Below the pieces are notes generated by a model that was given only the letters and a program-made list of their open reading frames with translations, was not told the DNA's origin and made no database searches. Below, piece after piece: positions 12,089 through 29,285 of a stretch of DNA of 63,360 bases (its first letter is position 1; each line of letters opens with the position of its first letter). Both the position numbers and the translations under genes were made by a program. Source of the stretch: a virus; IMG/VR virus record IMGVR_UViG_3300009103_001409, positions 1 through 63,360 of that record; one strand, given 5' to 3'.

Positions 12089-13069
12089 CTATAATATGGT
12101 TTTCCTAAAAGCAACCCACAAGTCCCCTAAATGAAGGGAGCCTTGCCCATCTTGCATGAGCATTTTGGTAATATTCAGCTTAGATAACAAGGGGTTAAAG
12201 TTATCCAAAGCAAAGTCAATTTTTTGTTTTCCTTGATGTGAAATATTTGGCTCATATAATTGCATAATTCTGTAATTACTCTTAACATGTTCTTTGTATT
12301 CTAGCAACCTTTTGTGTGCAACTTTTTTATCAATTGTCATAAAACAGTGCGTCATAAGCTCATCACAAGAATATGCCCTTTCTTCCTCCAAGAAAGGAAA
12401 ATACTTCACCATAGTCTTTATCCCAATCCGAGGAACGCCCTTGAGATTATCTGATGAATCTCCCTCAATTGCCCTAACAAGAGCAAAATTATTTGGATGA
12501 ACGCCAAACTTCATCCTAAGCATTGTTCCATTAATCAATTCTTTTTGGATTGGTCTCCAGATGAACGTATTCTCATTTCCACATAACTGATAGAAGTCTT
12601 TGTCTGAGGATACAATCACCTTTGTGTAATCACTGTATTTCTTGTGTTCATTGACATATGCTACAACATCATCAGCTTCAACATAATCCAGCATCAATTG
12701 AATAACAGGCATCTCATTAAGGTACTCGTGAAGTCTAAGTTGTTGATCTGCCCTATTCTTATAAACTTCATCTTCAGACAATTCAATCATTCTGCGGTTG
12801 AATCTAACGGGGCGTCTACCTTGTTTGTAATTCTTATTCATAAGCCTCTTCTTCTCTGAGCCTCCATGCCCATCCCAGCATATAACAACCTCATGAGGAC
12901 GAAAATCCCGACAAAGCTTCTGTAGTGATTTCATGAATCCGATGGTTCCACCATTTGGTAAGCCCTGTGCGTTCATACTCGGTATGATTGTGTAACTTCT
13001 GAGAAACATATTTAGAGCATCAATAATCAATACTCGTTTTTTATTGTCTGTCTCGATTGCTGGTCGCAT
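12089..13069 (-). CDS. 5'-3' exonuclease / flap endonuclease (T4 RNase H-like)
   Basis: The core matches the FEN/5'-3' exonuclease family: VLIIDALNMFLRSY near the N terminus (first metal Asp), VICWDGHGGSEKKRL, DYVEADDVVAYV, VSSDKDFYQL, and a helix-hairpin-helix segment RAIEGDSSDNLKGVPRIG. These enzymes remove RNA primers and flaps on lagging strands. The frame stays open to an ATG at 13153, but that would run translation through a terminator; the ATG at 13069, with CGGAG five bases upstream, is preferred and gives a 326-residue protein. Confidence 0.87.
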   Translation of the reverse strand: MRPAIETDNKKRVLIIDALNMFLRSYTIIPSMNAQGLPNGGTIGFMKSLQKLCRDFRPHEVVICWDGHGGSEKKRLMNKNYKQGRRPVRFNRRMIELSEDEVYKNRADQQLRLHEYLNEMPVIQLMLDYVEADDVVAYVNEHKKYSDYTKVIVSSDKDFYQLCGNENTFIWRPIQKELINGTMLRMKFGVHPNNFALVRAIEGDSSDNLKGVPRIGIKTMVKYFPFLEEERAYSCDELMTHCFMTIDKKVAHKRLLEYKEHVKSNYRIMQLYEPNISHQGKQKIDFALDNFNPLLSKLNITKMLMQDGQGSLHLGDLWVAFRKTIL

Positions 13070-13087
13070 ATTAACTCCGTTGCTTAT

Positions 13088-13116
13088 AACGTAATTCGTT
13101 CCTACTCTTTTGTCAA
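13088..13116 (-). promoter_or_regulatory. Candidate promoter before the exonuclease-helicase genes
   Basis: TTGACA (13116-13111) and, 17 bases on, TACGTT (13093-13088). The -35 box is perfect; the -10 matches at T, A and final T only. Its position, directly after the recA terminator and just before the start codon at 13069, supports it. Confidence 0.5.
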
Positions 13117-13117
13117 G

Positions 13118-13152
13118 AAAAAAAATGCCCCCGGCCATAAAAACCGAGAGCA
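13118..13152 (-). terminator. Rho-independent terminator after recA
   Basis: On the minus strand a nine-base stem, TGCTCTCGG with CCGGGGGCA (two G-U pairs), closes a nine-base loop and is followed by eight T residues. It lies 24 bases after the recA stop. Confidence 0.85.
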
Positions 13153-13176
13153 CCCAAGGAGAAAAACAAATGCAAA

Positions 13177-14262
13177 CTATTGTTTGTATTTATCTATAAG
13201 GACTTCATTCATAATAGCTATCACGCTGTCTCTGAACTCTTCCTCATTTAACTTGTTAAGCCATTGTTTTGCTTGAAATTTCGCCGTTTTTCCGCTTTGC
13301 AGTGTAAGGGTATACCAAGCACCGGAAAGCGTTAATTTCGGCGTTTTTGCAAGCTTAAGAACCTCAAGCCAAGACTCTTTATCTTGAATGCAGACGTTAT
13401 TATTCGCCCACATAATCTTGAAGTTACAATCCCTCCCTTCGGAACCAAATCGAGACTTCTTGAGGAAGCAACGAACATGAGAACCGACACGAACACCATC
13501 TTCATCAATGGCAAATGAAGCTTTCGCTTTGCGCTTGGTTAACCAAATACGCAAAGATGAAAAATACTCAATAGCCTTTCCTCCGGGAGCTATATATGGC
13601 TCCACAAGCATTTCTGCTGGACGAGAGGATATGTTTGTCTTGAGTTGGTTAATCAACAACAAGGTTGATTCGGTATTCGCAAGAGGAATCGTAAGTTTGG
13701 GAAATGCTTTCGAAAAAATTCTTGGCTTCACAGCCATTGAGGACTGAGGGTTGTAGTCTCCTTCCACATCCTTTTCCGAAGGCGTTGCAGCAATGGAGTC
13801 CCATATAAACAAGACACGCTGATCTGCGTATTCATTCATGATATATTCCATTGTTTCTAATGTTTTCTCAACACTAACTGCTTGAATGTAGAGCATTCCC
13901 TCCTTAGAGCAGCCTGCTCTCTCTAAGAACTCTACATCAATCGCTGACTCTGCATCGAAGTAAACAACAAACATGCCTTTCTTCTGTGCGTTCGCTGCTA
14001 TCTGTACTGCCATGAATGACTTCCCAGCACCTGATAATCCAGCTAGTTCAGTGATTTTGCCAACAGGTATCCCGGCTTCTTCACCAGGCTTAATAATACA
14101 ATCAAGCCATCGTGAACCTGTTGGTATCCAGTCTCGAACATTCACAGGGTTCGACTGGTTCAAATCATGGGCCATCTCAAGCCCAATCTTCTTATTAATC
14201 TTCTTGGCTAAATCGCCAACGTTTATCTTGCCGGGTTGTTTCATTTGTACTACCTTGCCCAT
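13177..14262 (-). CDS. RecA/UvsX-type recombinase
   Basis: A 361-residue RecA-fold protein. Walker A is GLSGAGKS at residues 75-82, Walker B is VLFIWDSIAA, and LLLINQLKTNIS matches the end of the RecA core (L2 region upstream). It catalyses strand exchange for recombination-dependent replication and repair, acting with the gp32-type protein nearby. The frame extends upstream to 14322, but ATG 14262, preceded by AAGGGA and lying two bases after the thioredoxin stop, gives the expected length. The terminator at 13118-13152 ends its transcript. Confidence 0.9.
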   Translation of the reverse strand: MGKVVQMKQPGKINVGDLAKKINKKIGLEMAHDLNQSNPVNVRDWIPTGSRWLDCIIKPGEEAGIPVGKITELAGLSGAGKSFMAVQIAANAQKKGMFVVYFDAESAIDVEFLERAGCSKEGMLYIQAVSVEKTLETMEYIMNEYADQRVLFIWDSIAATPSEKDVEGDYNPQSSMAVKPRIFSKAFPKLTIPLANTESTLLLINQLKTNISSRPAEMLVEPYIAPGGKAIEYFSSLRIWLTKRKAKASFAIDEDGVRVGSHVRCFLKKSRFGSEGRDCNFKIMWANNNVCIQDKESWLEVLKLAKTPKLTLSGAWYTLTLQSGKTAKFQAKQWLNKLNEEEFRDSVIAIMNEVLIDKYKQ

Positions 14263-14263
14263 G

Positions 14264-14587
14264 CTAAATAGTCCCTTTAGTTGAATTAACAAACTCAAGA
14301 ATTTGTTGTTCATTACCAGCACCTGTTTGTCTGTTTACCACTTTTCCATCTTTGATAACAATCAAGGTTGGGATGCTTCGAACACCAAACTTCTGGGCTA
14401 CATTAGGGCTCTCATCAATATTAATCTTTGCTACTGTCACTTTGCCTTCCAGAGTCTGCGATAGAGAATCCAGAACAGGAGATAGCCTCTTACAGGGCAT
14501 ACACCAATCGGCATAAAAATCAACTAGCGTTGTACCAGTTGACGTTTCAGTATCAAAATTGCTTTCATTTAGCCTTTTTACGCTCAT
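14264..14587 (-). CDS. Thioredoxin
   Basis: A 107-residue thioredoxin: VDFYADWCMPCKRLSP with the redox pair C29/C32, and the cis-proline segment SIPTLIVIKDG. The active-site dipeptide is MP rather than GP of E. coli thioredoxin. It probably re-reduces the class II reductase encoded in the same module. AGGAGG precedes the start. It is followed at once by recA and preceded by a tiny lipoprotein frame. Confidence 0.93.
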   Translation of the reverse strand: MSVKRLNESNFDTETSTGTTLVDFYADWCMPCKRLSPVLDSLSQTLEGKVTVAKINIDESPNVAQKFGVRSIPTLIVIKDGKVVNRQTGAGNEQQILEFVNSTKGTI

Positions 14588-14596
14588 ATTACCTCC

Positions 14597-14707
14597 TTAA
14601 TGATATCGAACGGTTGCTTCCACTTCTTCGACTGCTGTATCATCTGATCCAGAGTCTACTTCTTCATCTTCGCCACATGCGAACATTGTTAATATAAATA
14701 TTATCAC
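14597..14707 (-). CDS. Tiny predicted lipoprotein (36 aa)
   Basis: A GTG at 14707 with CGGAGG four bases upstream opens a 36-residue frame. It reads a hydrophobic stretch IIFILTM, a lipobox-like MFAC, then a strongly acidic tail with EDEEVD and SGSDD. This is the layout of a small lipoprotein, cysteine at residue 11, although the signal lacks the usual positive N terminus. It lies between the single-strand-binding-protein terminator and thioredoxin, whose start follows the stop by nine bases. Lipoprotein export is inferred. Confidence 0.5.
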   Translation of the reverse strand: MIIFILTMFACGEDEEVDSGSDDTAVEEVEATVRYH

Positions 14708-14720
14708 TATTCCTCCGTTT

Positions 14721-14751
14721 AAAAATTAAGGCATCTGTAAACCCATGCCTT
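14721..14751 (-). terminator. Rho-independent terminator after the ssb gene
   Basis: Minus strand AAGGCAT and ATGCCTT pair across a ten-base loop, followed by AATTTTT. A second GC-rich hairpin (AGCGCC/GGCGCT, 14793-14814) without a T-run lies between it and the ssb stop and may protect the 3' end. Confidence 0.65.
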
Positions 14752-14828
14752 CCTGCGGTGGGGGTTAAAAGATGGTGCCCTATTTACTAAGAAGCGCCGG
14801 GCTACCAAGGCGCTCATCACTAAACCTT

Positions 14829-15590
14829 CTAGCCGTTTTGGTTCATGAAGTTTTTTAACGCTCCATCAACAGCATCCTTCGCACTATACATCTGCTTTTC
14901 AGACGAGGCATTCTCGGAGGTAATATCGGAGGATAAATAATCATCCAACAGCGCTTGTACTTCGGAGGTAGTCTGGCGTTGGAATAATGTCTCAATGTCT
15001 GGAACAGAATTAATAAGTTCATCACAATTTTCCACATCTTCACATAAAAGCGAAGGACGCCGACGAGGTTTTAATGATGTTTTCGGAAACGACCCTGGGG
15101 TACCCGGAATTGTATAAGTCATAACAATATCAGTACCTGTTTCCTCATGGGTTAAGTCCCCATAGTCGGGATCAAGAACATAAGACAAAAGTGTCTCATA
15201 TGCAGTCTTACCATAAGACCACACTCTTACGCCCTTAGATTCCTCTCCACGAACCAAAATTGGAGAGAAGTATCGTTTACGAGCAAAGAGTTTCTTTGCT
15301 TCTCGTTTAGCTGTATCATCATTGTTTTCTACACCTTCGCGCCACAGCTTTGACGCAAAGTCACAAATTGGACACTCTTCTCCATGATTACGCTTTGGAC
15401 AAAGAATGCCAGGATTTCTTCCCACATTATAGTGGAAATGAAATTCTTTGAAAGGGTCACCATCAGATGCTGGCATCAGCCGGATAGTTTGATCACCCTC
15501 AGATGGTCGCCATTTGTTATTATCTTGTTTTTTGCCACCGTTACGTGACGCTTCGAGCTTAGCTCTCATAGCTTCTAAATTAATAGCCAT
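14829..15590 (-). CDS. Single-stranded DNA-binding protein, T4 gp32 type
   Basis: A 253-residue protein with the gp32 plan: a basic N-terminal arm (MRAKLEASRNGGKKQ), an OB-fold core beginning at FHYNVG, and a zinc-binding loop with C64, H69, C73 and C76 in CPKRNHGEECPICDF. KLFARKRYFSPILV is the DNA-binding segment seen in gp32 homologues. The C-terminal region is acidic, as in proteins that recruit replication partners. It coats single strands at the fork and assists RecA. AAGAGG precedes the start; the leader is structured (see 15622-15671). Confidence 0.9.
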   Translation of the reverse strand: MAINLEAMRAKLEASRNGGKKQDNNKWRPSEGDQTIRLMPASDGDPFKEFHFHYNVGRNPGILCPKRNHGEECPICDFASKLWREGVENNDDTAKREAKKLFARKRYFSPILVRGEESKGVRVWSYGKTAYETLLSYVLDPDYGDLTHEETGTDIVMTYTIPGTPGSFPKTSLKPRRRPSLLCEDVENCDELINSVPDIETLFQRQTTSEVQALLDDYLSSDITSENASSEKQMYSAKDAVDGALKNFMNQNG

Positions 15591-15621
15591 AGTGTTTTAC
15601 CTCTTGTTAGTTAAGTTTTTT

Positions 15622-15671
15622 GTCCTTAAGGACTAAGGTCGGGGGGATTTTAACCCCCCGCCATATTTATA
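15622..15671 (-). promoter_or_regulatory. Structured leader of the ssb gene with TATAAATA box
   Basis: Minus strand order: TATAAATA (15671-15664, identical to the T4 late -10 consensus), then at once a hairpin of seven G-C pairs with a seven-base loop (15660-15640), then GTCCTTAAGGAC (15633-15622), a small hairpin. No T-run follows, so this is not a terminator. A hairpin at the very 5' end of the message would stabilise it or serve self-regulation, as the gp32 message leader does in T4. Promoter use is inferred. Confidence 0.5.
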
Positions 15672-15703
15672 TATCCCAAATTACATAGATTCCACAAAGC
15701 AAA

Positions 15704-15949
15704 TTAGGATTTTGGGAATGAATAATTCACACTTCTTGAATTCACAGAACCTACGATACGACTTCGATTAAAAGTTCGAAATCCATGCTTATCAGTATCC
15801 CAAACAGTCCGCATGTCGCCAGAGCTTTCTTTACGTTGTTTAGAAGAAAACTGTGAACTTGGTAAGTCAGAAACTTGAATATAATTCATAGTTCGTGTAG
15901 TTCCATCAGTCTTAGTAAAGGTTCCGGTGTATTGTGTAAATGTGCTCAT
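15704..15949 (-). CDS. Small paralogous protein A, possible WYL_2/Sm-like barrel
   Basis: An 81-residue protein sharing its N terminus (MSTFTQYTGTFTK) and overall plan with the next gene to the right (16106-16360). The pattern F-x-K-x-D-G-x-x-R then a tryptophan or tyrosine-Asp segment and GFRTFNRSRIVG recalls small Sm/SH3-like barrel proteins of phages (DUF2693/WYL_2 type); this is my impression only. It has a long leader, a consensus promoter and repeats upstream. The start follows TGGAGG. Confidence 0.6.
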   Translation of the reverse strand: MSTFTQYTGTFTKTDGTTRTMNYIQVSDLPSSQFSSKQRKESSGDMRTVWDTDKHGFRTFNRSRIVGSVNSRSVNYSFPKS

Positions 15950-15967
15950 GTTTACCTCCAGTGATTT

Positions 15968-16020
15968 ATGAGTTAAGTTGCGAAATTAAAAGATATTTAT
16001 TGTTCATGAGTTAAGTTGCG
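15968..16020. repeat. Direct repeat in the leader of protein A
   Basis: ATGAGTTAAGTTGCG occurs exactly twice, at 15968-15982 and 16006-16020, 38 bases apart. Its core AGTTAAGTT occurs a third time in the ssb leader (15609-15617). All three are within leaders of minus-strand messages, reading AACTTAACT there. Confidence 0.75.
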
Positions 16021-16090
16021 GCATTTGGGTTGTGATATATGCCGACAAGGACTCAATACTTAATAAGATTTTTCTTTTTCCTTCTCTTAT

Positions 16091-16119
16091 ATTATAACCG
16101 ATCGGTTATGATTTGTCAA
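16091..16119 (-). promoter_or_regulatory. Perfect sigma-70 promoter with embedded palindromic operator
   Basis: TTGACA (16119-16114), 17 bases, TATAAT (16096-16091) on the minus strand: both boxes and spacing are the full consensus. A perfect 16-base palindrome, ATAACCGATCGGTTAT, occupies 16094-16109, covering the 3' spacer and half of the -10 box. A dimeric repressor bound there would block polymerase. The -35 box is inside the end of the preceding gene. Confidence 0.85.
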
Positions 16120-16360
16120 ATTGTTTTTTGATATATTTTGAAGAAAGTTTGCCAACCAATGTACCGTGATTGAATCTGCGGATTCCTTTCACATTAACAT
16201 CGTAAACAACTTCCATTTTGCCATCAGAGCTAATATGGTTTTCGCGCATTTCATTAGAAACCATATGTTTTGGCAAGTCAAGAATTTTAATATAATTCAT
16301 TAGTCGATTGACACCATTCCTTTTGCGAAATATGCCAGTGTATTGTGTGTATGTACTCAT
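16106..16360 (-). CDS. Small paralogous protein B, possible WYL_2/Sm-like barrel
   Basis: An 84-residue paralogue of the gene to its left: MSTYTQYTGIFRK, MNYIKILDLP and IRRFNHGTLVGKL line up with MSTFTQYTGTFTK, MNYIQVSDLP and FRTFNRSRIVGSV. The two arose by tandem duplication and have diverged to roughly one-third to one-half identity. It starts two bases after the tubulin-like gene ends, so it belongs to that transcript, whereas its paralogue has a private promoter. Function unknown; small-barrel nucleic-acid binding is possible. Confidence 0.6.
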   Translation of the reverse strand: MSTYTQYTGIFRKRNGVNRLMNYIKILDLPKHMVSNEMRENHISSDGKMEVVYDVNVKGIRRFNHGTLVGKLSSKYIKKQFDKS

Positions 16361-16361
16361 A

Positions 16362-17165
16362 TTACCTCCAATCTTGAATATGATGAGTATATTTGAGAGA
16401 ATAAAAGAATGATTGCTTATGCTCGGACGGGTAGACTGCGAACGAAGATGTTATTTTGTTTTTCTCATCGTCAGTGACACGGCTCTTGATAAGTTTTAGC
16501 AAGTCTTTGTTACTCTCCAGTTGTTGTTTGCTTATACTGTAAATGTATCCTGTTTCAGTGATATTGTCAAGAAAAAACATTAAGTTTTCTTCTTTTTTCT
16601 TGAGAACCCCCGTTGAAACTGTACTAATTCGAGACACCTCTTTCGGTATATGCTGGGAGCCTAAAACGGGCTGTTGTGTTCTAAACCACTCTATTGTCTC
16701 TATTGTGTTTGCAATCTGTTTGTTTATCATGTCGAACATCTTCGTTATGGATTGATCACCAATTATGTTCAATATATCTTTGTTTGAGAATACGGTGAGC
16801 CTGTTCAATAATCCTGACCTTGCATATTCCTGTAGTACGTTGAATACCACCTTGTGTCTCTTAGCTACTTGTGGAGATGCCCACTCTAAGTCGGGGAATA
16901 CATATCCAACATTAATCTTTTTATTCTTTATAGTCTCCAACAGACGCAATGTAGCGGAAGAGCATTTGCTTCCACCGCAAAGGAAGAACCAACACTCGCC
17001 TTCGGCAAACTTCAGTTTCTTGAATTTTGGACAATGCATCTCGAAATCTTCTTCAATTTTGCACTTCTTTGGAAAGTCAGACTCAACTATCGTCACCTTT
17101 TTGTACAAATCAGAGAAGTGATTTGCGATTCCTGCTCCTGCTGAACCTAATCCTATGACAACCAT
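16362..17165 (-). CDS. Divergent tubulin/FtsZ-superfamily protein
   Basis: A 267-residue protein whose landmarks follow FtsZ in order: VVIGLGSAGAGIANHF at the start (glycine-rich nucleotide loop), a strand then FLCGGSKCSS at 61-70 where FtsZ has its GGGTGTG phosphate loop, helix, NVGYVFPDLEWASP (FtsZ VVTKPF segment), a long helix, LTVFSNKDIL (FtsZ VIPND-RLL), and KMFDMINKQIANTI (FtsZ AF-x-x-ADEVL helix). The tubulin signature is degenerate and the T7-loop aspartates are not evident, so GTPase activity is uncertain. An ordinary dinucleotide-binding Rossmann protein is the alternative, favoured by KVTIVESD. GGAGGAGG precedes the start. It overlaps the polymerase stop by 13 bases. Confidence 0.6.
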   Translation of the reverse strand: MVVIGLGSAGAGIANHFSDLYKKVTIVESDFPKKCKIEEDFEMHCPKFKKLKFAEGECWFFLCGGSKCSSATLRLLETIKNKKINVGYVFPDLEWASPQVAKRHKVVFNVLQEYARSGLLNRLTVFSNKDILNIIGDQSITKMFDMINKQIANTIETIEWFRTQQPVLGSQHIPKEVSRISTVSTGVLKKKEENLMFFLDNITETGYIYSISKQQLESNKDLLKLIKSRVTDDEKNKITSSFAVYPSEHKQSFFYSLKYTHHIQDWR

Positions 17166-18346
17166 AATACCTCCTCCATATCTCTAAGGTTTCTTCCTGC
17201 TGTTGCTGAAGATTTGAACCAACCGAGTTGAGTATCTTCAAATATCTCTTGGATTTGGGGAAGCATATGCCTATCATCAAACGCCAAATCAATTGTTATT
17301 GAGTCATGAACGACAGAATGAACAAACGACTTTGTATTCTGAACAAATTTGTTTATTTTAACCGCTTGTTTCATACAATTGTCTGAAGATGAAGACTGCA
17401 AGAGATAGTTCAGAGCATGAAAGTCATCAGCTTCAATGTGTCTGCCGAATGGGGTGGAGACAACACCATCAGTATAATATTTATTTAACAGTAGTCTCCT
17501 ATCATAGTGCTCTGAGTCTATGGCGTCAGAGTTGGGGTTGTAGAGCCACGCTAAGAACTTCGTCTTGGCTGTCTTTCTATCGTACTTGCCATCGAAGAGG
17601 TGTTCCATATTCCACTCATGTATGTCTACACGGGGGTGGGTACCAGTAGATAAAGAGATGAAGGCTCGAACCTCCGCTCCGTTCAAATCAAAGGAGACGA
17701 ATATATCATTCTTCGGCACAACACAGTTGGCAATTTCCTTCTTGAGATTCATTATCGGAAAGGAACCTTTCTTCGTTGTCAATCGTCCAGTTTTTGAACC
17801 CCACACATCGTACAGAATCGGCTTGTTTTTGCCGTTTAGTGAACTAAGCAGCACCCTTGCCTTGTTATCCGTCTTGGATGCTTTTTTGAGGGTACCTTGA
17901 GCGATTAACACATCATTTTGGGATATGTCGTGAGCCATTTCAAACATGTCAACCAAGAAGCCATGATTCTGAGGTTTATCATGGTTGGAGAACACATGTT
18001 CACATATCTCATTCTTTACTTCACAATAGTGCATAAGATGTTGTTCTGGGACCAAATCAAACATGCAAAGTTCACCAAGCTTAAGTTTGGCATTTGCTGC
18101 TGAGTTGATGAATGCTCTTATCTTCTTTTCTCTCTTTTCAAGTCGAGACTTAAGATGCTCGGGGCATACTTCCTCTAACGACTTTCCGTTAACATAAACG
18201 CTAGCATAATCAACAGGAACACCATTGAGACGGCTATGCCAGTTCCATGTTCGATTAGAAGTTGTAGGTATTCTATCATAAATAAACTCTCCATTACTGT
18301 AAATGCCAAAGCATTCTTTTCTATCATCCAATATCTGAAATATCAT
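17153..18346 (-). CDS. Short family-A (PolA-like) DNA polymerase
   Basis: A 397-residue protein containing the family-A palm and fingers. YDVWGSKTGRLTT near 179, motif A VSFDLNGAEVRAF with catalytic D220, motif B RKTAKTKFLAWLYNP at 257-271, a TPFGRHI turn near 298, NYLLQSSSSDNCMKQAV matching the Q-helix, and motif C VHDSITID with D348. In PolA motif C is HDE; here Glu is Ser. It has no exonuclease domain and is shorter than T7-like or host enzymes (about 600-930 residues). Both catalytic aspartates are present, so polymerisation is plausible. AGGAGGTT-type ribosome site upstream (GGAGG). It lies between a structural gene and the tubulin-like gene. Confidence 0.8.
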   Translation of the reverse strand: MIFQILDDRKECFGIYSNGEFIYDRIPTTSNRTWNWHSRLNGVPVDYASVYVNGKSLEEVCPEHLKSRLEKREKKIRAFINSAANAKLKLGELCMFDLVPEQHLMHYCEVKNEICEHVFSNHDKPQNHGFLVDMFEMAHDISQNDVLIAQGTLKKASKTDNKARVLLSSLNGKNKPILYDVWGSKTGRLTTKKGSFPIMNLKKEIANCVVPKNDIFVSFDLNGAEVRAFISLSTGTHPRVDIHEWNMEHLFDGKYDRKTAKTKFLAWLYNPNSDAIDSEHYDRRLLLNKYYTDGVVSTPFGRHIEADDFHALNYLLQSSSSDNCMKQAVKINKFVQNTKSFVHSVVHDSITIDLAFDDRHMLPQIQEIFEDTQLGWFKSSATAGRNLRDMEEVLWLS

Positions 18347-19620
18347 TAATAACCTCCGCCAGAACCTCCGGATTTTTTGTTTGTAGTCGAAGGTTGATTT
18401 GGTACATCGCTCAATAAAACTCTTCTTCGCTCTAGTCTCTTAGTCCAACCACTCAATCCGAACGGCTTTGAGAATAGCTTATTTCTGAAGATGTCATTAA
18501 TGTAACCTGCTTTGCCTGCTTTGTCAAGAAATTTGTTTGAGTTTGTTATTATTTGCCTTAGGACTGGTTTTGTGAATTCATTATTATTTTCAATGTTTCT
18601 TAATTCTGCATAAATTGATACCCAATGTCTAGAAAATCGATAGTTTGTGTTGTATTCGTCTAAAAGTTGTCTTCTAAAAGTATTAACTCTAGTTTTATTG
18701 TTACAAGATACTGATATTGTTCTTTTTTCTTCATTAAAGATTACAAAATCATTATAATATTTAATTATATAATTAATTAATAAATTAATATCATTTACAT
18801 CTGTTCTATAATAATTCTGACTGAATAGTCCTAATATGTTTCGAGTGGCGGTTTTATCACCAGGGAAAAACTTACTGGCTGCTGGTGAGGACAAGTCAGC
18901 AACCAATACCCATGGAGCTTGTTTAATTATGGAAAACCCTTTGTTCAAGGCAATTTTCTTATAGTAAGGATAGGCTGGACTGTTGATAAAATTTACGCTT
19001 TGTTCATCGTTTCCGCCTTTGAAATTTTCTATTGCAAATGCCAAACCAGTAGAGAAAATCGAATTATATTTCGACGTATACCACCCAGTATATGTAATTG
19101 GATCACCAGGGTTTTGTTCTCTGAAATATACCATTAAATACTTGACATACATATCAAAAGAGGTTATTTTTTTGATATCACTATCTGATAAATAATCCGT
19201 ATTAAACCTCATTAAGATACCTCTTAAGTAATCTATATACTTAAACGTTGGATTTTCCCATGCTCTCACAGGCTCCAACAGCGCAATGCTTCTAGTTGCC
19301 GGGCTTAACACACCAGACATAATTTTCAAGCTGATATTCATTCTCATTTCATTATACATCTCGTTGACAAGTGGCAATATTTGAAATTGAGAAGAAGAAT
19401 CACTCGCTGGTGCCGTTTGCATTGTTGTCATTGCGGTGTCTTTGGGTTGCACCACCACTCCGTTTGTATTAATTCTTCCGTAATAATTGAATTCAGCAAA
19501 GTTTAAGTCCTTTATAACCTTGGAGCCCTGTCCACCGTTTTCCGGATGGGCTTTCGCTTGGTACATAGACCTTAACGTTGCAATCTCTGCTGCTGAATTT
19601 ATATTGTTTTTACCCCACAT
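18346..19620 (-). CDS. Putative baseplate/virion structural protein
   Basis: A 424-residue protein I do not recognise by motif. It has an ordered body with many aromatic residues (SKYNSIFSTGLAFAIENF, QAPWVLVADLSSPA) and a disordered Gly/Ser-rich end (KKSGGSGGGY). It follows the 1676-residue protein by three bases in the tail region, so a baseplate role is likely by position. Confidence 0.55.
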   Translation of the reverse strand: MWGKNNINSAAEIATLRSMYQAKAHPENGGQGSKVIKDLNFAEFNYYGRINTNGVVVQPKDTAMTTMQTAPASDSSSQFQILPLVNEMYNEMRMNISLKIMSGVLSPATRSIALLEPVRAWENPTFKYIDYLRGILMRFNTDYLSDSDIKKITSFDMYVKYLMVYFREQNPGDPITYTGWYTSKYNSIFSTGLAFAIENFKGGNDEQSVNFINSPAYPYYKKIALNKGFSIIKQAPWVLVADLSSPAASKFFPGDKTATRNILGLFSQNYYRTDVNDINLLINYIIKYYNDFVIFNEEKRTISVSCNNKTRVNTFRRQLLDEYNTNYRFSRHWVSIYAELRNIENNNEFTKPVLRQIITNSNKFLDKAGKAGYINDIFRNKLFSKPFGLSGWTKRLERRRVLLSDVPNQPSTTNKKSGGSGGGY

Positions 19621-19623
19621 TTA

Positions 19624-22600
19624 TCATTGTACTCCTTTTTCGTAATCTTCCTCGTCGTTGATTTTCATATCGGTTGTATAAAACTCGACCCTCTTGTCCT
19701 TCGGATTATACACTGCCATAACCCACAACCCATTAGATATCAATACATATACGGTATTACCATTATGGTCCGTTGCATTTCTATCCCAGCCCATCCAATC
19801 ATTCTCTGTTGGTTTTACGTTGCTCCTCCAATGGACAAAATCGTTACCACTTCCCCCCTCAATCTGTATCCCCAATGTTCTATAGCCCTTCAGATCTGGG
19901 AACGTGGATATGCTCCCATACTCGTATTTACTATATTCATCCTTTCCTCGCATTTCAAAATCTTTTGAAAGCGTAATTGTGTCCAACTCGCCTTCTTTGG
20001 CAATCTTCCCCTCAAAATTTATTGTATCTCCTGCCCTGAGTCCTACGGTGGAGGATGTCAAAGCCGGGGGCACCGTCTTTTTCGGAACAGAGCCACCAGA
20101 TGAGCCACCAGATGAACCACCGCCACCACCTATTTTTGGATTCTTCTTTGTGTTATGTGAACCAGCCCCTTGCAACGCCTTTAATGCTGCTGCCTGCCCT
20201 TTCCATGGCCCACTGAAGTTGGAATTGCAATTTGCAACTTTTTGATTAACCTTTGTCTTCTTTTTTGGTAATCTGAACCTGTCTACTCCTGCGTTGTTCG
20301 CTTTATCTTCGGATTTCAGTCCGTAATTTACCCAAGCAGCCTCAACCGTAGTGGTACATAGTGGTGATTTACCACCAGAAAATTTCATTTTATGATTAAC
20401 TGATATAATTTGATAATACCCACCAATACCCAAATGGAATGCCATCGAATTCAATTTGTTTGGGGCATCACCGAGTCCACCATCTACCCAACACAACTGC
20501 CCAGGATAAAGAAAAAAGCAAGCCCCTCCCATTTCAATTTTCACGTTATAAACTCCTGCGATTTGTGCAAGATTTCCTTGATTTGATGCAAAAAACTTTA
20601 CTTCTCTTCTGTATGGGGCGTCTTTCTTTGAGAAAGACATTTTGCTTATTAGTGAACCAACCCCCAATTCGTCATCACCGTTAACAAGAATCTCATCCAC
20701 AATAGTTCTGTACTTAAATTCTGGAATGCCGTTTTGGTGGGCACTCGAATCTCCCTGTGCTGATTGAAATTCAAACGATCTTGCATTTGCTGGGTATAAT
20801 ATTAAATAATTATAATATTCATCGCGATATCGCATAGAGTTTTTCTTTAATAAGGGGAATTTCTTTACTGACTTGGTATCACTATACTTGTACTCTAGCA
20901 CCCCATTTACTAATCTCTTGCTTATACGAGCAGCAGAATAGCTATCAAGGATATTTTCAAAACACATTAACTTACCCCTTATTGCCTCTTTTCTTTTTGT
21001 CCCAACCAAACCAATATCCATTGATGCTCTAAATAATACTTTATTTTCTGAGGCGATATCAAAGCACACCTCACCCATAAGCCTTGTTATAATATTTTGA
21101 GCAAGAGACTTTAAAAATGTTGCAACTGGATAGTAGCTAAGTTTTTTGTTTATAATTTCTTTGCGGAACCAATCTGCAAACCACTCTAAGTGAATTGGTA
21201 CATCTGCCAAATTACTATCCATCTCCTCATACACACCATCATTATTTGGTAAATACCACCGAAAAGAAGGAAGAATGACTTTTGTTCGTGGGGGTGAATA
21301 ATAATATCCACCTAAAGATTTAGACAGCTTTCTGTCTCTGACTGGGTGGGGAAATGAAAATGTTTTATCAGCCTCCAGAGTTTGTCTTAATGACCTTCTA
21401 TCAACATCCGTTTTCTTTCCACCCTGAGTCAGCCACATATTCTCATGCATTCCATCCAACAAAACATCCACCAAATCCCCAAAAAAGAAGAATTGAATAT
21501 CGGAAAAATCTTGCTTTTTGATAGGTGGCGGCTTGGTTTTGCCTTTATAACTAGAATCCTGCCCGGATGTGGTAAATTCCTGCCGCCATTTCGCATTAAA
21601 ATCAGATGCTATCCCTGTGTCTGCGTTTAAAGATTTGTACTTTTCAAGTATTTTTGTTCCATGCGGAAGAACGCCTTTAATCCATCCCTTTTCTTTAGTC
21701 AACTGCCTATACAGGAATATTTGTTTTGCCAAATTTGCAAAGTTGTGAGTTTTTTGTAAATGTTCTGTTATTTCTTTTGGTTTTATTATTGAAGTTCCAA
21801 GGGTAGATAATGCACTTGTCACAACTTTATTTTGAATTCCGACTGTAAAAAGTCTATCGCTATCGTTAAGTGCCGATATAATCCTAGGTAATGTTTCAAA
21901 AGTATCCGTATGTGCGTTATTTCTTAAAGAGCGAATTTTATCTTGAATCTTTTTTGGATTGCAGCCCTGCATCATTGCGCCTCTTAAGTTCATTTCTCTT
22001 CCTATCCTGTCCTTCACAGTTTTTTGTCCTGCAAGTGCATCCATTGAGGGGTCCGTTAAGACAGAATCAACATATCCCCTATACTCTACTGTTACTGTGG
22101 TTTTGTTGGTTTTTTCATCTTTCTTTATTTCATGATCCACAACAGCGATATCCAATGCCAATGGAACGTTTGATAACATTTTGTTCATCGCCTTATAATG
22201 AGCAGGAGAGTATGAATCGTCTTCCCCCGGATCATGATAAACATAACTTTTCAATAATAATCGATTATAATCGGGGTGGTATTGGTTCCGAAACGCACTA
22301 GAAAAGCCCGTTGGGTTTGAATTATTTGTATAGGTTATTAAATCCAAAAAAGAAAACTCGTATTTGACATCTTGCATTTTCCCATCCCATCCTTCAATTT
22401 CATATTCATATTCAAAAACTTGCTCTAAAAGCCTTATGTCCGGTAAATGAAAGTCGATTTTAACAGTGACATCAGATTTTGCCGTTGCCGTGTTTCCACC
22501 CTTAAAGTTGATGTCAATAGAATTCATGGTTATTATGTCACCACGATATAAATCTTTTATATCTTTTCGAAATGCCTTTTCAATGAAAATTTCTTTTGCA

Positions 22601-26585: not shown

Positions 26586-29285
26586 TTATCTATTCTCCAC
26601 TATCATTTCTGATATCAAGTGCCTCAGTTCTTCCCCGTCTAAGACAACAGTAACATTAACCTCGGGGGCAGAAATTTTTGCCTCATCCATATTAACATCG
26701 ACTGTGATATTGTTTGGCATCATCATGAACATTCCGCCTTGCCCAGCAACAACAGTTGTCATCGTCCCATCAGATTGAATCATTAAACTTCCATCTCCCA
26801 TTGCGCTCCTTATTCCACTAGCTGCTGTTCCCAATCCAGATAGTCCTGCTCTAAGGTTTTTGATTCCTTCTCCCATAGCCCCGACAGCTTGCCCTATAGA
26901 TATCAAATCTGCAAAGCTTGTTCCGCTAAGCGCCATTGACGCCCTAAGAGCAAACAGAGCAATTGTACCAGCGGCGATGCCCAATGTTGCCATTAAAGCC
27001 ATCTTGCCCAAGAAAAAGAACCCAGCCCCAATAGCCACGAGTGCCCCAGCCATAGCAAACATTGGGCCTACTGCGGATATCACTGTTTCCAGAAGCCCAG
27101 ATATTGCATCTATCAAAGGCGGCAAGACATAGAATATCCCAACAAGCCCTGCCATAATCACGATAAGAGCAGGTAGAGCAGCCATCATAGCCGGTCCGGC
27201 GAAGTAAAACGCTGCACCAAGAGCAATAATTCCAATAGCCATTATTGCTCCCATTTCCCACAAAGCAGGAGAACCAGACAAAAGAAAAGCTGCCATGAGG
27301 CCTATTAATACAGCCGCCAAGACAATTCCAGCACTAACTGCAAACCACGAAGCACTTCCAAAAGCAAATTTTGATGCTGTTGCTGCCTGTTCCAGCGTCA
27401 TACCAGATGCCAGTGCTGCCATATAACTAGCTTGATGGACAGTATATGCTAATTGTGCCAATTTTAATCCGACATAAGCGAATGTTACTTTGCCGATATT
27501 GTTTCCCATCCAGCCAAATATCGAAGCCAGTTTTTCAGCCAAGTTAAGCAATGTTGGGGTGGCTGCGATTAATGCTTCCAGGACTTTCTCGAACCCACCA
27601 CCCTTCATCATCGCTTCTTTGAATTTATTCATCAACTGTGTTAGAGCCGGTACCATATCCATTACATTACCTTGTAACTCTGCTAGAGATTCTGCGTGAG
27701 CTTTCTGTTTTGCAATTGCTTCCTCGTCAACCTCAACACCGTGCTCCAAATATCCCTGAAGTAACTGAACATTGTCTCCAAACCCAAGTATTTCAGCAGC
27801 AGCCAATCTTTGGTGCTTTGTCATCGCTTCATAGCCACCAGTAGCATTTATCAGAGACATCCTCATCTCTTCGTTAATCTCGCTAGCAGTCATGGACTGC
27901 ATAGAAATTGCACTAATGCTTGTTCCAAATACTGCGTTCATCTGAGCAGCTTTATCTGCACCACTGCTGAACTTATTGAACGCTTTTGCAACGTTAAGCA
28001 TTTGAGTTATCGATACACCAGTCTTTTGGGATGCCTTGCCCAAATTCAAGATTTCGGTTTTTGCATCTCCACCCATACTCATTACGGTTCCTGCGAAGCT
28101 TTCAAAATCAGAAGCAGCCTGTTGAGCATCCAAACCCATATTTCGAGCAGTTGCTATGAATTGAACCATTGCCTTATTACCAGCTTCAGCGCCCTTCTTG
28201 ACGCCTCCGAACTCATAAGACATCATCCTAGTGAGTTTTGCGGTTTTCTTCTCGGAGATACCCAGCTTGGCAACAAGGGTATTTGTTTTCGTAATGCTAT
28301 CACGGACACTTTCATCCTGCTCGGCAAATCCTGCTAATTCCAGCCTTGCTGCCGTATACGCCTTGCCCATGTCTTTAACTGAGATGTTGTATTTCCCCAA
28401 TTGTTCGCTCTGTGCTGCAACCAAGATTCCTTGCATTTCATCTCTTGCTGCACCGGTGGCTTTGGTTAGCGCTATCGTCGCTTCTTCAATTGCGAAAAAC
28501 TGTTCAACCATTATAGTTGCCACGTTACCCAAGATATTCATTGGAGAGAACAACGACATAACCCCACCAGCCAGCAATTTGGTTGCGCCCCAAGCGTCAT
28601 TCCTAAACGCCATCGCAACATTGGAAGCACCTTGAACCATTTTCCCAAGTGTAGTATCTGAGGCTTTCGCTGTGATTCCCAGTTTCTTTGACATGAAATT
28701 GAAGGCATTGTTGACATCATCAGCGGCATTCTCTACATGATCAAGGTCCCCTTTCATTTTTCCTAAACCGGCTGACGCACTATCGAGCTTTTCATTGTCC
28801 AAAATATCAGTATCTGACATTTCTTGCAATTGTTTTGCAATTCTTGGAGGCAGATTTCCCATCTCAACAAGCTTTTTCATCATATCGGTTAAAGCTTTCC
28901 CGTGTTCCTCTGCTGCTCCTTTTGCTGCTATGAGTCTTTTTCCTGCTATTATTGCTTCTCTTGAATCATCCCCCTTTTCTTGTTGGACTTTTGCAAGTGC
29001 CTTTTCAGCATTGATTTTCTCTTGATTTAGCTGCTTCTGTTTATCAGTCATTTTGCTTATAGCATCAACTTCAAGCTTTTGCATCTTTATGGTGTTTTTG
29101 TATGCTGCGATTCTATCATCCATTACAGCATTGATTCTTTGCTCAATTCGTTCTTGTTCTTTACGTCTTTCCAATTCGGCTTTTTGAAAATCCGCAATTT
29201 CAGCAGCAGTTAGTCCGCCTGAACCACCGCCACCATCATCACCGCCGCCACCTTCATCGTCTGCTGGACCTTCCCATTCCCACAT
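26586..29285 (-). CDS. Tail tape measure protein
   Basis: 899 residues. An acidic Gly-rich start is followed by a long charged coiled coil (ERRKEQERIEQRIN...), a helical region, and then several hydrophobic segments around residues 640-800 (GIVLAAVLIGLMAAFLL, IMAIGIIALGAAFYFAG, MAGALVAIGAGFFFLG), ending in a strand-rich tail. This is the standard plan of tape measure proteins, which set tail length and insert into the host membrane at ejection. At about 0.15 nm per residue the tail would be roughly 135 nm (inference). It comes after the gp26-like gene and its overlapping frame, the position of tail chaperones in many phages. Confidence 0.82.
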   Translation of the reverse strand: MWEWEGPADDEGGGGDDGGGGSGGLTAAEIADFQKAELERRKEQERIEQRINAVMDDRIAAYKNTIKMQKLEVDAISKMTDKQKQLNQEKINAEKALAKVQQEKGDDSREAIIAGKRLIAAKGAAEEHGKALTDMMKKLVEMGNLPPRIAKQLQEMSDTDILDNEKLDSASAGLGKMKGDLDHVENAADDVNNAFNFMSKKLGITAKASDTTLGKMVQGASNVAMAFRNDAWGATKLLAGGVMSLFSPMNILGNVATIMVEQFFAIEEATIALTKATGAARDEMQGILVAAQSEQLGKYNISVKDMGKAYTAARLELAGFAEQDESVRDSITKTNTLVAKLGISEKKTAKLTRMMSYEFGGVKKGAEAGNKAMVQFIATARNMGLDAQQAASDFESFAGTVMSMGGDAKTEILNLGKASQKTGVSITQMLNVAKAFNKFSSGADKAAQMNAVFGTSISAISMQSMTASEINEEMRMSLINATGGYEAMTKHQRLAAAEILGFGDNVQLLQGYLEHGVEVDEEAIAKQKAHAESLAELQGNVMDMVPALTQLMNKFKEAMMKGGGFEKVLEALIAATPTLLNLAEKLASIFGWMGNNIGKVTFAYVGLKLAQLAYTVHQASYMAALASGMTLEQAATASKFAFGSASWFAVSAGIVLAAVLIGLMAAFLLSGSPALWEMGAIMAIGIIALGAAFYFAGPAMMAALPALIVIMAGLVGIFYVLPPLIDAISGLLETVISAVGPMFAMAGALVAIGAGFFFLGKMALMATLGIAAGTIALFALRASMALSGTSFADLISIGQAVGAMGEGIKNLRAGLSGLGTAASGIRSAMGDGSLMIQSDGTMTTVVAGQGGMFMMMPNNITVDVNMDEAKISAPEVNVTVVLDGEELRHLISEMIVENR

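Follow-up and report, generated by a model that had tools for sequence, protein, structure and literature searches.

What does a protein with the segment order of FtsZ do among the replication genes of a T4-like virus? The question was raised by an open reading frame of 267 codons, with an ATG start, in the window, the whole stretch of 63,360 bases analysed here, which is the IMG/VR record of a T4-like bacterial virus that has not been cultured. Most tubulins known from phages belong to jumbo phages that form a nucleus (PhuZ) or to plasmid-like prophages (TubZ). An initial annotation, made from the letters of the DNA, had described the product, here called Z, as a divergent tubulin/FtsZ-like protein of a T4-like phage. 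The position it gave for the gene was exact (Table 1) and the segments it named were all present in Z. The T4-type major head protein, portal, terminase and sheath, together with gp32 and UvsX, bear out the T4-like assignment, taken broadly. In the open-access literature searched, nothing was found on an FtsZ-like gene in phages of this kind, and the words "FtsZ" and "tubulin" are absent from the Far-T4, Bacteroidetes-virus and pelagimyophage papers.

Table 1. Positions in the window of the Z gene, its nucleotide-site segments and the neighbouring genes
Feature	Position	Strand	Basis
Z, FtsZ/tubulin-superfamily protein (predicted), 267 aa	16362..17165	-	ORF; orthologs; AF2 pLDDT 94.8; Foldseek FtsZ/TubZ
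T1 glycine loop, residues 5-12, GLGSAGAG (family consensus GLGxAGCN)	17130..17153	-	conservation
T4 phosphate-loop equivalent, residues 63-72, CGGSKCSSAT (family CG[SA]GKVSGAT)	16950..16979	-	
T6 loop, residues 127-130, SNKD	16776..16787	-	N128 conservation; hhalign register
H7 residue N148	16722..16724	-	conservation; hhalign register
T7-loop equivalent, residues 163-179 (TQQPVLGSQHIPKEVSR)	16629..16679	-	no NxDxx[DE]; no H8 in model
Compact family-A DNA polymerase, 397 aa, palm/fingers motifs	17153..18346	-	PF00476 E 2.6e-4; phrog_17 2.7e-10
Small protein, 84 aa	16106..16360	-	ORF; no family match; resembles WYL_2 neighbour by eye
WYL_2 (Sm-like SH3 barrel) small protein, 81 aa	15704..15949	-	PF10902 E 9e-7
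gp32-type single-strand DNA-binding protein	14829..15590	-	PF08804 E 1.6e-17

The Z family

The family was gathered by scanning the neighbourhoods of polymerase and gp32 genes on related viral contigs. Alignment of 67 non-redundant orthologs, with identities down to 26%, left nine invariant residues, and at least 596 members were found in IMG/VR by a profile scan. The dN/dS ratio had a median of 0.083 and a maximum of 0.16 (74 unsaturated pairs), and Z is a real gene under selection. One full copy was present in each of the 14 records that were searched whole. Outside this group, tblastn with five different queries gave no significant match in 50,697 annotated phage records. A tblastn match (E 0.03) to a stretch of a 656-aa protein of the SPN3US group was taken as chance, as was a weak HMM match to Rm378p006 of phage RM378 (E 0.0095, two short pieces). 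No cellular relative was found in a scan of genome contigs with one degenerate peptide pattern, which is a weak negative.

A dozen structural and replication proteins of the record matched the Far-T4 isolate Rhodothermus phage RM378, and the replication block of gp32, UvsX, 5'-3' exonuclease, gp41 helicase and RNR matched that of Microcystis phage Mel-JY01. The Z gene was absent from both phages.

Gene neighbourhood

The initial annotation had placed Z beside two replication genes, and across relatives this arrangement proved to be strict. In loci collected with polymerase, gp32 and Z queries, some of which overlap on one contig so that the counts are not independent, a family-A DNA polymerase was found upstream of Z wherever there was room (135 of 135, with frames that overlap or abut in 89) and gp32 downstream (136 of 136 with room), while Z was present in all 81 gp32 loci having more than 4.5 kb upstream. 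No exception to the order polymerase-Z-gp32 was seen in the loci examined. Pairwise identities of Z and of the polymerase were correlated (r = 0.89, 94 loci).

The frame of the window polymerase overlaps the start of Z by 13 nt. No exonuclease domain was recognised in this short protein; its relatives scored above the Pfam cut-off, and the motif A D, the motif B R/K/Y and the motif C HD were invariant in 103 aligned rows. No family-B polymerase (PF00136) was found in eight relatives, and the compact family-A enzyme was the only DNA polymerase detected in the T4-like lineage of the window. The gp45 clamp (PF02916), which was matched in the T4 positive control, was found in none of six large relatives. 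In RM378 (L312/L313) a family-B polymerase is encoded as two genes, one for the exonuclease and one for the polymerase, which differs from the window lineage although the structural genes are related. A 408-aa protein without a Pfam match is encoded upstream of gp32 in Mel-JY01 (L196, 3712-4938). By eye it keeps the family-A-like motifs FDYDAFHIK, KKLIFKNIYGG and YDAFIFDI, and it may be the unannotated polymerase of that phage, without Z beside it.

Some further genes of the window were noted. The 84-aa and WYL_2 proteins share matching N-termini (MSTYTQYTGIF and MSTFTQYTGTF) and look like a tandem duplication. The gene of a phage thioredoxin (14264-14587, minus strand; PF00085, 4e-29) lies between those of gp32 and UvsX. 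The family-A polymerase of T7 uses thioredoxin as its processivity factor, and by analogy a similar use in this virus is conceivable. An 899-aa protein (26586-29285, minus strand) had no PHROG match.

Fold of Z

The best Pfam matches of the window protein were MurD-like_N (E = 0.011) and TrkA_N (0.045), weak glycine-loop matches that span mainly the first 30-50 residues. Nothing significant was found against PHROGs and PDB sequences; the PHROG matches of Z were scattered and were set aside as uninformative. The Tubulin family PF00091 had no match in the window protein, and in eight relatives no match passed the cut-off; of the 67 aligned members, 10 matched it weakly (E below 1, best 5.5e-4) and 17 matched TIGR00065 ftsZ weakly (best 1.2e-3). 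Sacchrp_dh_NADP was matched in 23 members (best 1.2e-4), and because such GxGxxG oxidoreductase models match Z comparably, the PF00091 and TIGR00065 matches would not alone decide the assignment. An hhalign alignment of Z with E. coli FtsZ was co-linear over 152 columns, with low and uncalibrated single-pair probabilities. Since shuffles reached the real score in 1 of 200 cases with the single FtsZ and in 5 of 200 with an FtsZ profile, the fold was not regarded as proven by the sequence.

Structure prediction followed by a Foldseek search, the check proposed in the initial annotation, was more decisive. The AF2 model made from the single sequence was useless (pLDDT 40), whereas the 67-sequence family alignment gave a confident model (pLDDT 94.8, pTM 0.91). 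All 50 PDB matches listed were FtsZ or TubZ (E 1.5e-10 to 8e-9, probability 1.00, TM 0.60-0.71 by query length), and none was a dinucleotide-binding Rossmann protein, the result that had been named as speaking against an FtsZ-like fold. In BFVD, a library of predicted virus structures, the best matches were A0A6J5RW92, an "FtsZ Cell division GTPase" (E 2.2e-11), and A0A8S5UFG9, a "Cell division protein" (E 6.2e-9), both FtsZ-like proteins of uncultured phages; phage tubulin-like proteins were matched as well. These two proteins, of 452 and 387 aa and 15% and 11% identical to Z, are set apart from it by length and identity and were treated as a separate family.

By DSSP, the order of elements in the model is S1-H1-S2-(short helix)-S4-H4-S5-H5-S6-H6-H7, and the C-terminal domain that follows is made up of strands plus two helices. 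Relative to FtsZ, only a short helix (residues 38-43) is left of the S3-H3 part with the T3 loop, and the DSSP string showed no helix H8 after H7. The model has the two-domain tubulin/FtsZ fold, with a Rossmann-like GTPase domain, H7 and the C-terminal domain. By prediction, Z has the fold of the tubulin/FtsZ superfamily and is a divergent member of it.

Nucleotide-site motifs

Residue conservation was calculated from 123 distinct members of the family (effective number 76 at 80% identity). In T1, G5, G7 and G10 were kept in 99%, 100% and 95% of members. The T4 equivalent, CGGSKCSSAT in place of GGGTG[TS]G, had G64 in 100% and K67 in 66%. The strand and loop GYVFPDLEW (residues 87-95) is followed by the long helix (98-117). 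N128 of T6 was kept in 99% of members, and N148, in the helix FDMINKQI (144-151) that follows SNKD, in 97%. The hhalign alignment, made without being told what to look for, put them on N165 and N186 of E. coli FtsZ, the two positions by which FtsZ and tubulin read the guanine base. The guanine-contact residues of FtsZ were found in Z in both T6 and H7.

Drift of key residues, remarked on in the initial annotation, extends to the whole family. Neither GGGTG[TS]G, also when relaxed to GGGTG[TSA]G, nor NxDxx[DE] in the T7 region was present in any of the 123 members, compared to both in 31 of 31 FtsZ controls. These signatures of GTP binding and of hydrolysis, respectively, are used as defined in PMC12583498. 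An acid was present at residue 173 in 51% of members and at residue 176, the last T7 position and the catalytic one, in 70%. Because the latter is kept, residual GTP hydrolysis may be possible and may not be fully lost. The segment of lowest entropy was the H5-S6 turn ARSG (1.08 versus 1.98 overall), which by topology sits at the end opposite the nucleotide, and R179-I180, after the T7 equivalent, was also strongly kept. Such conservation of the nucleotide face and of the opposite end would fit a head-to-tail contact. All members end 1-17 residues after Q264.

Proposed role of Z

Judged from the residues kept and lost, the parts that read guanine and close round the diphosphate look intact, while those needed for sensing the gamma-phosphate and for its hydrolysis in the adjacent subunit are gone or changed, which is why Z is read here as a scaffold or switch that would assemble weakly or statically. 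The explanation we prefer, put forward tentatively, is that Z is a guanine-nucleotide-binding structural or switch protein at the phage replication site, probably self-associating and with weak or no GTP hydrolysis. Taken separately, binding of a guanine nucleotide is quite likely and a role in replication somewhat less so but still probable, and self-association is evenly balanced. Z would be made together with the DNA polymerase from overlapping frames, alongside gp32, UvsX and the helicase, and would bind GTP or GDP in the usual tubulin/FtsZ pocket. Subunits would associate head to tail into at least dimers or short, slow-turnover polymers, weak or static, an association made probable because the most conserved regions include the nucleotide face as well as portions of the end opposite to it. 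Hydrolysis would be slow or none, because the hydrolysis motif and the gamma-phosphate (T3) segment are gone or remodelled, and such an assembly would serve to hold the replication complex or to position it. The phage gene neighbourhood is suggestive of a shared function, not proof of it. Taken together, the evidence suggests that Z is a viral protein of cytoskeletal type and of a new kind, linked to the replication of the virus DNA.

Two features speak against polymers. Judged from the model, Z may not polymerise, because H8 and the T7 signature, which are used in longitudinal contacts of FtsZ, are lost; Z is also without the long C-terminal tail that PhuZ needs for filaments (PMC7950403). 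In favour of the proposed role, PhuZ D190A shows that a phage tubulin can assemble although hydrolysis is lost, since it forms stable filaments (PMC4244570). A precedent for the replication role is another phage protein of cytoskeletal type, the actin-like AlpC of prophage CGP3, which is needed for efficient phage DNA replication (PMC4446434); it has an actin fold where Z is predicted to have a tubulin fold, and it has a DNA-binding adaptor, AlpA. A stronger form of the replication-site explanation, which we consider unlikely, is that Z founds a class of the tubulin superfamily that is obligatory in the viral replisome, a non-hydrolysing, guanine-nucleotide-gated scaffold or processivity element and not a classic cytoskeleton. 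It would be produced along with a minimal family-A polymerase, in those T4-like genomes where gp43 and gp45 are undetected.

Z and the polymerase are strictly adjacent, their frames overlap and they co-diverge. Together with the undetected gp45 clamp and the absence of H8 and of the T7 signature, this could point to a polymerase accessory switch, a monomeric or dimeric GTP/GDP-binding factor that would bind directly to the compact polymerase, for instance to serve processivity or the start of synthesis, and would never form filaments. This is rather unlikely: the conservation of ARSG at the opposite end fits self-association as well, and we know of no tubulin-superfamily protein that works in this way.

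Phage inhibitors of FtsZ are known, and this counts for a host division poison, in which Z would mimic an FtsZ subunit, cap or co-assemble with host FtsZ filaments and halt division. With bacterial and archaeal FtsZ (PDB 1fsz, 5h5h, 2vap), the cell-division GTPase, Z shares the two-domain fold, the central helix H7, the glycine loop and, in register, the T6 Asn and the H7 Asn/Asp, with Foldseek E values of about 1e-10 and TM up to 0.71. Z differs from FtsZ in its core of 267 aa compared to 300-330 in the matched chains, in having S3-H3/T3 as one short helix, and in lacking H8 in the model, the long C-terminal tail and both signature motifs. A capping subunit could well have such an FtsZ fold, in which the nucleotide face is kept and T7 and H8 are absent. 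However, Z is only about 10% identical to FtsZ and no FtsZ-like surface conservation was demonstrated. The strict residence in a replication operon and the strong constraint are also unlike typical variable host-takeover genes, and a division poison is improbable.

PhuZ, the spindle tubulin of nucleus-forming jumbo phages, is like Z a phage-encoded member of the superfamily; the PhuZ of 201phi2-1 also falls under the PF00091 cut-off (27.8 bits), and the viral structure library gave a match to the tubulin-like protein of pEt-SU (E 6e-5). A dynamic spindle of this kind, centring the phage DNA or nucleus by GTP-driven dynamic instability, is nevertheless quite improbable for Z, which has neither the catalytic motif NxDxx[DE] in any of the 123 members nor the long C-terminal helix or knuckle of the PhuZ type, and which is closer to FtsZ and TubZ than to PhuZ in its structural matches. 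The phage lineage and the gene context of Z are also different from those of PhuZ. No sequence match to chimallin, the nuclear shell protein, was found in six relatives of 141-192 kb (possibly incomplete), where the positive control matched, and this weakens a link of Z to a phage nucleus.

That Z is a TubZRC (type III partition) protein, by which a plasmid-like prophage would be stably inherited, was rejected as very improbable. TubZ, the plasmid and phage partition tubulin (PDB 4ei7, 4ei8, 2xka), has the same fold and was the rank 1 PDB match (4ei8, E 1.5e-10); unlike it, Z has no hydrolysis motif. However, Z sits in a replication operon among virulent-type T4-like genes, with no iteron array at 13000-19700 and no match to an HTH-type or TubR-like protein among its neighbours. 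An ordinary Rossmann dinucleotide-binding enzyme misread as FtsZ, to which the GxGxxG matches given above would point, is refuted at the level of prediction by the full-length structural matches, all FtsZ or TubZ among those listed.

With Z, the tubulin superfamily reaches into an uncultured T4-like lineage that is widespread, and is coupled there to DNA replication, not to segregation or to a nucleus. Z keeps the base-recognition residues and has lost both signatures by which tubulins are found, and because of this loss the sequence libraries tried do not recognise it. Z is a natural test of what a tubulin is capable of without the hydrolysis motif, and a lead on how such phages copy their DNA with a very small polymerase.

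Variants within the family

Some members depart from the common form of the gene. In the record behind L096 (G005), an extra short partial match to profile positions 196-242 (69508-69648, E 8e-11) lies near the full Z gene and may have arisen by duplication of a piece of the C-terminal domain. In L183 (1858-2679), Z is broken into two ORFs, a possible frameshift or assembly error. An acidic C-terminal tail ending in DDQDIG/S is conserved in one sub-clade (L168, L164, L174, L192, L187, L167, L172 and L171) and resembles a protein-docking peptide.
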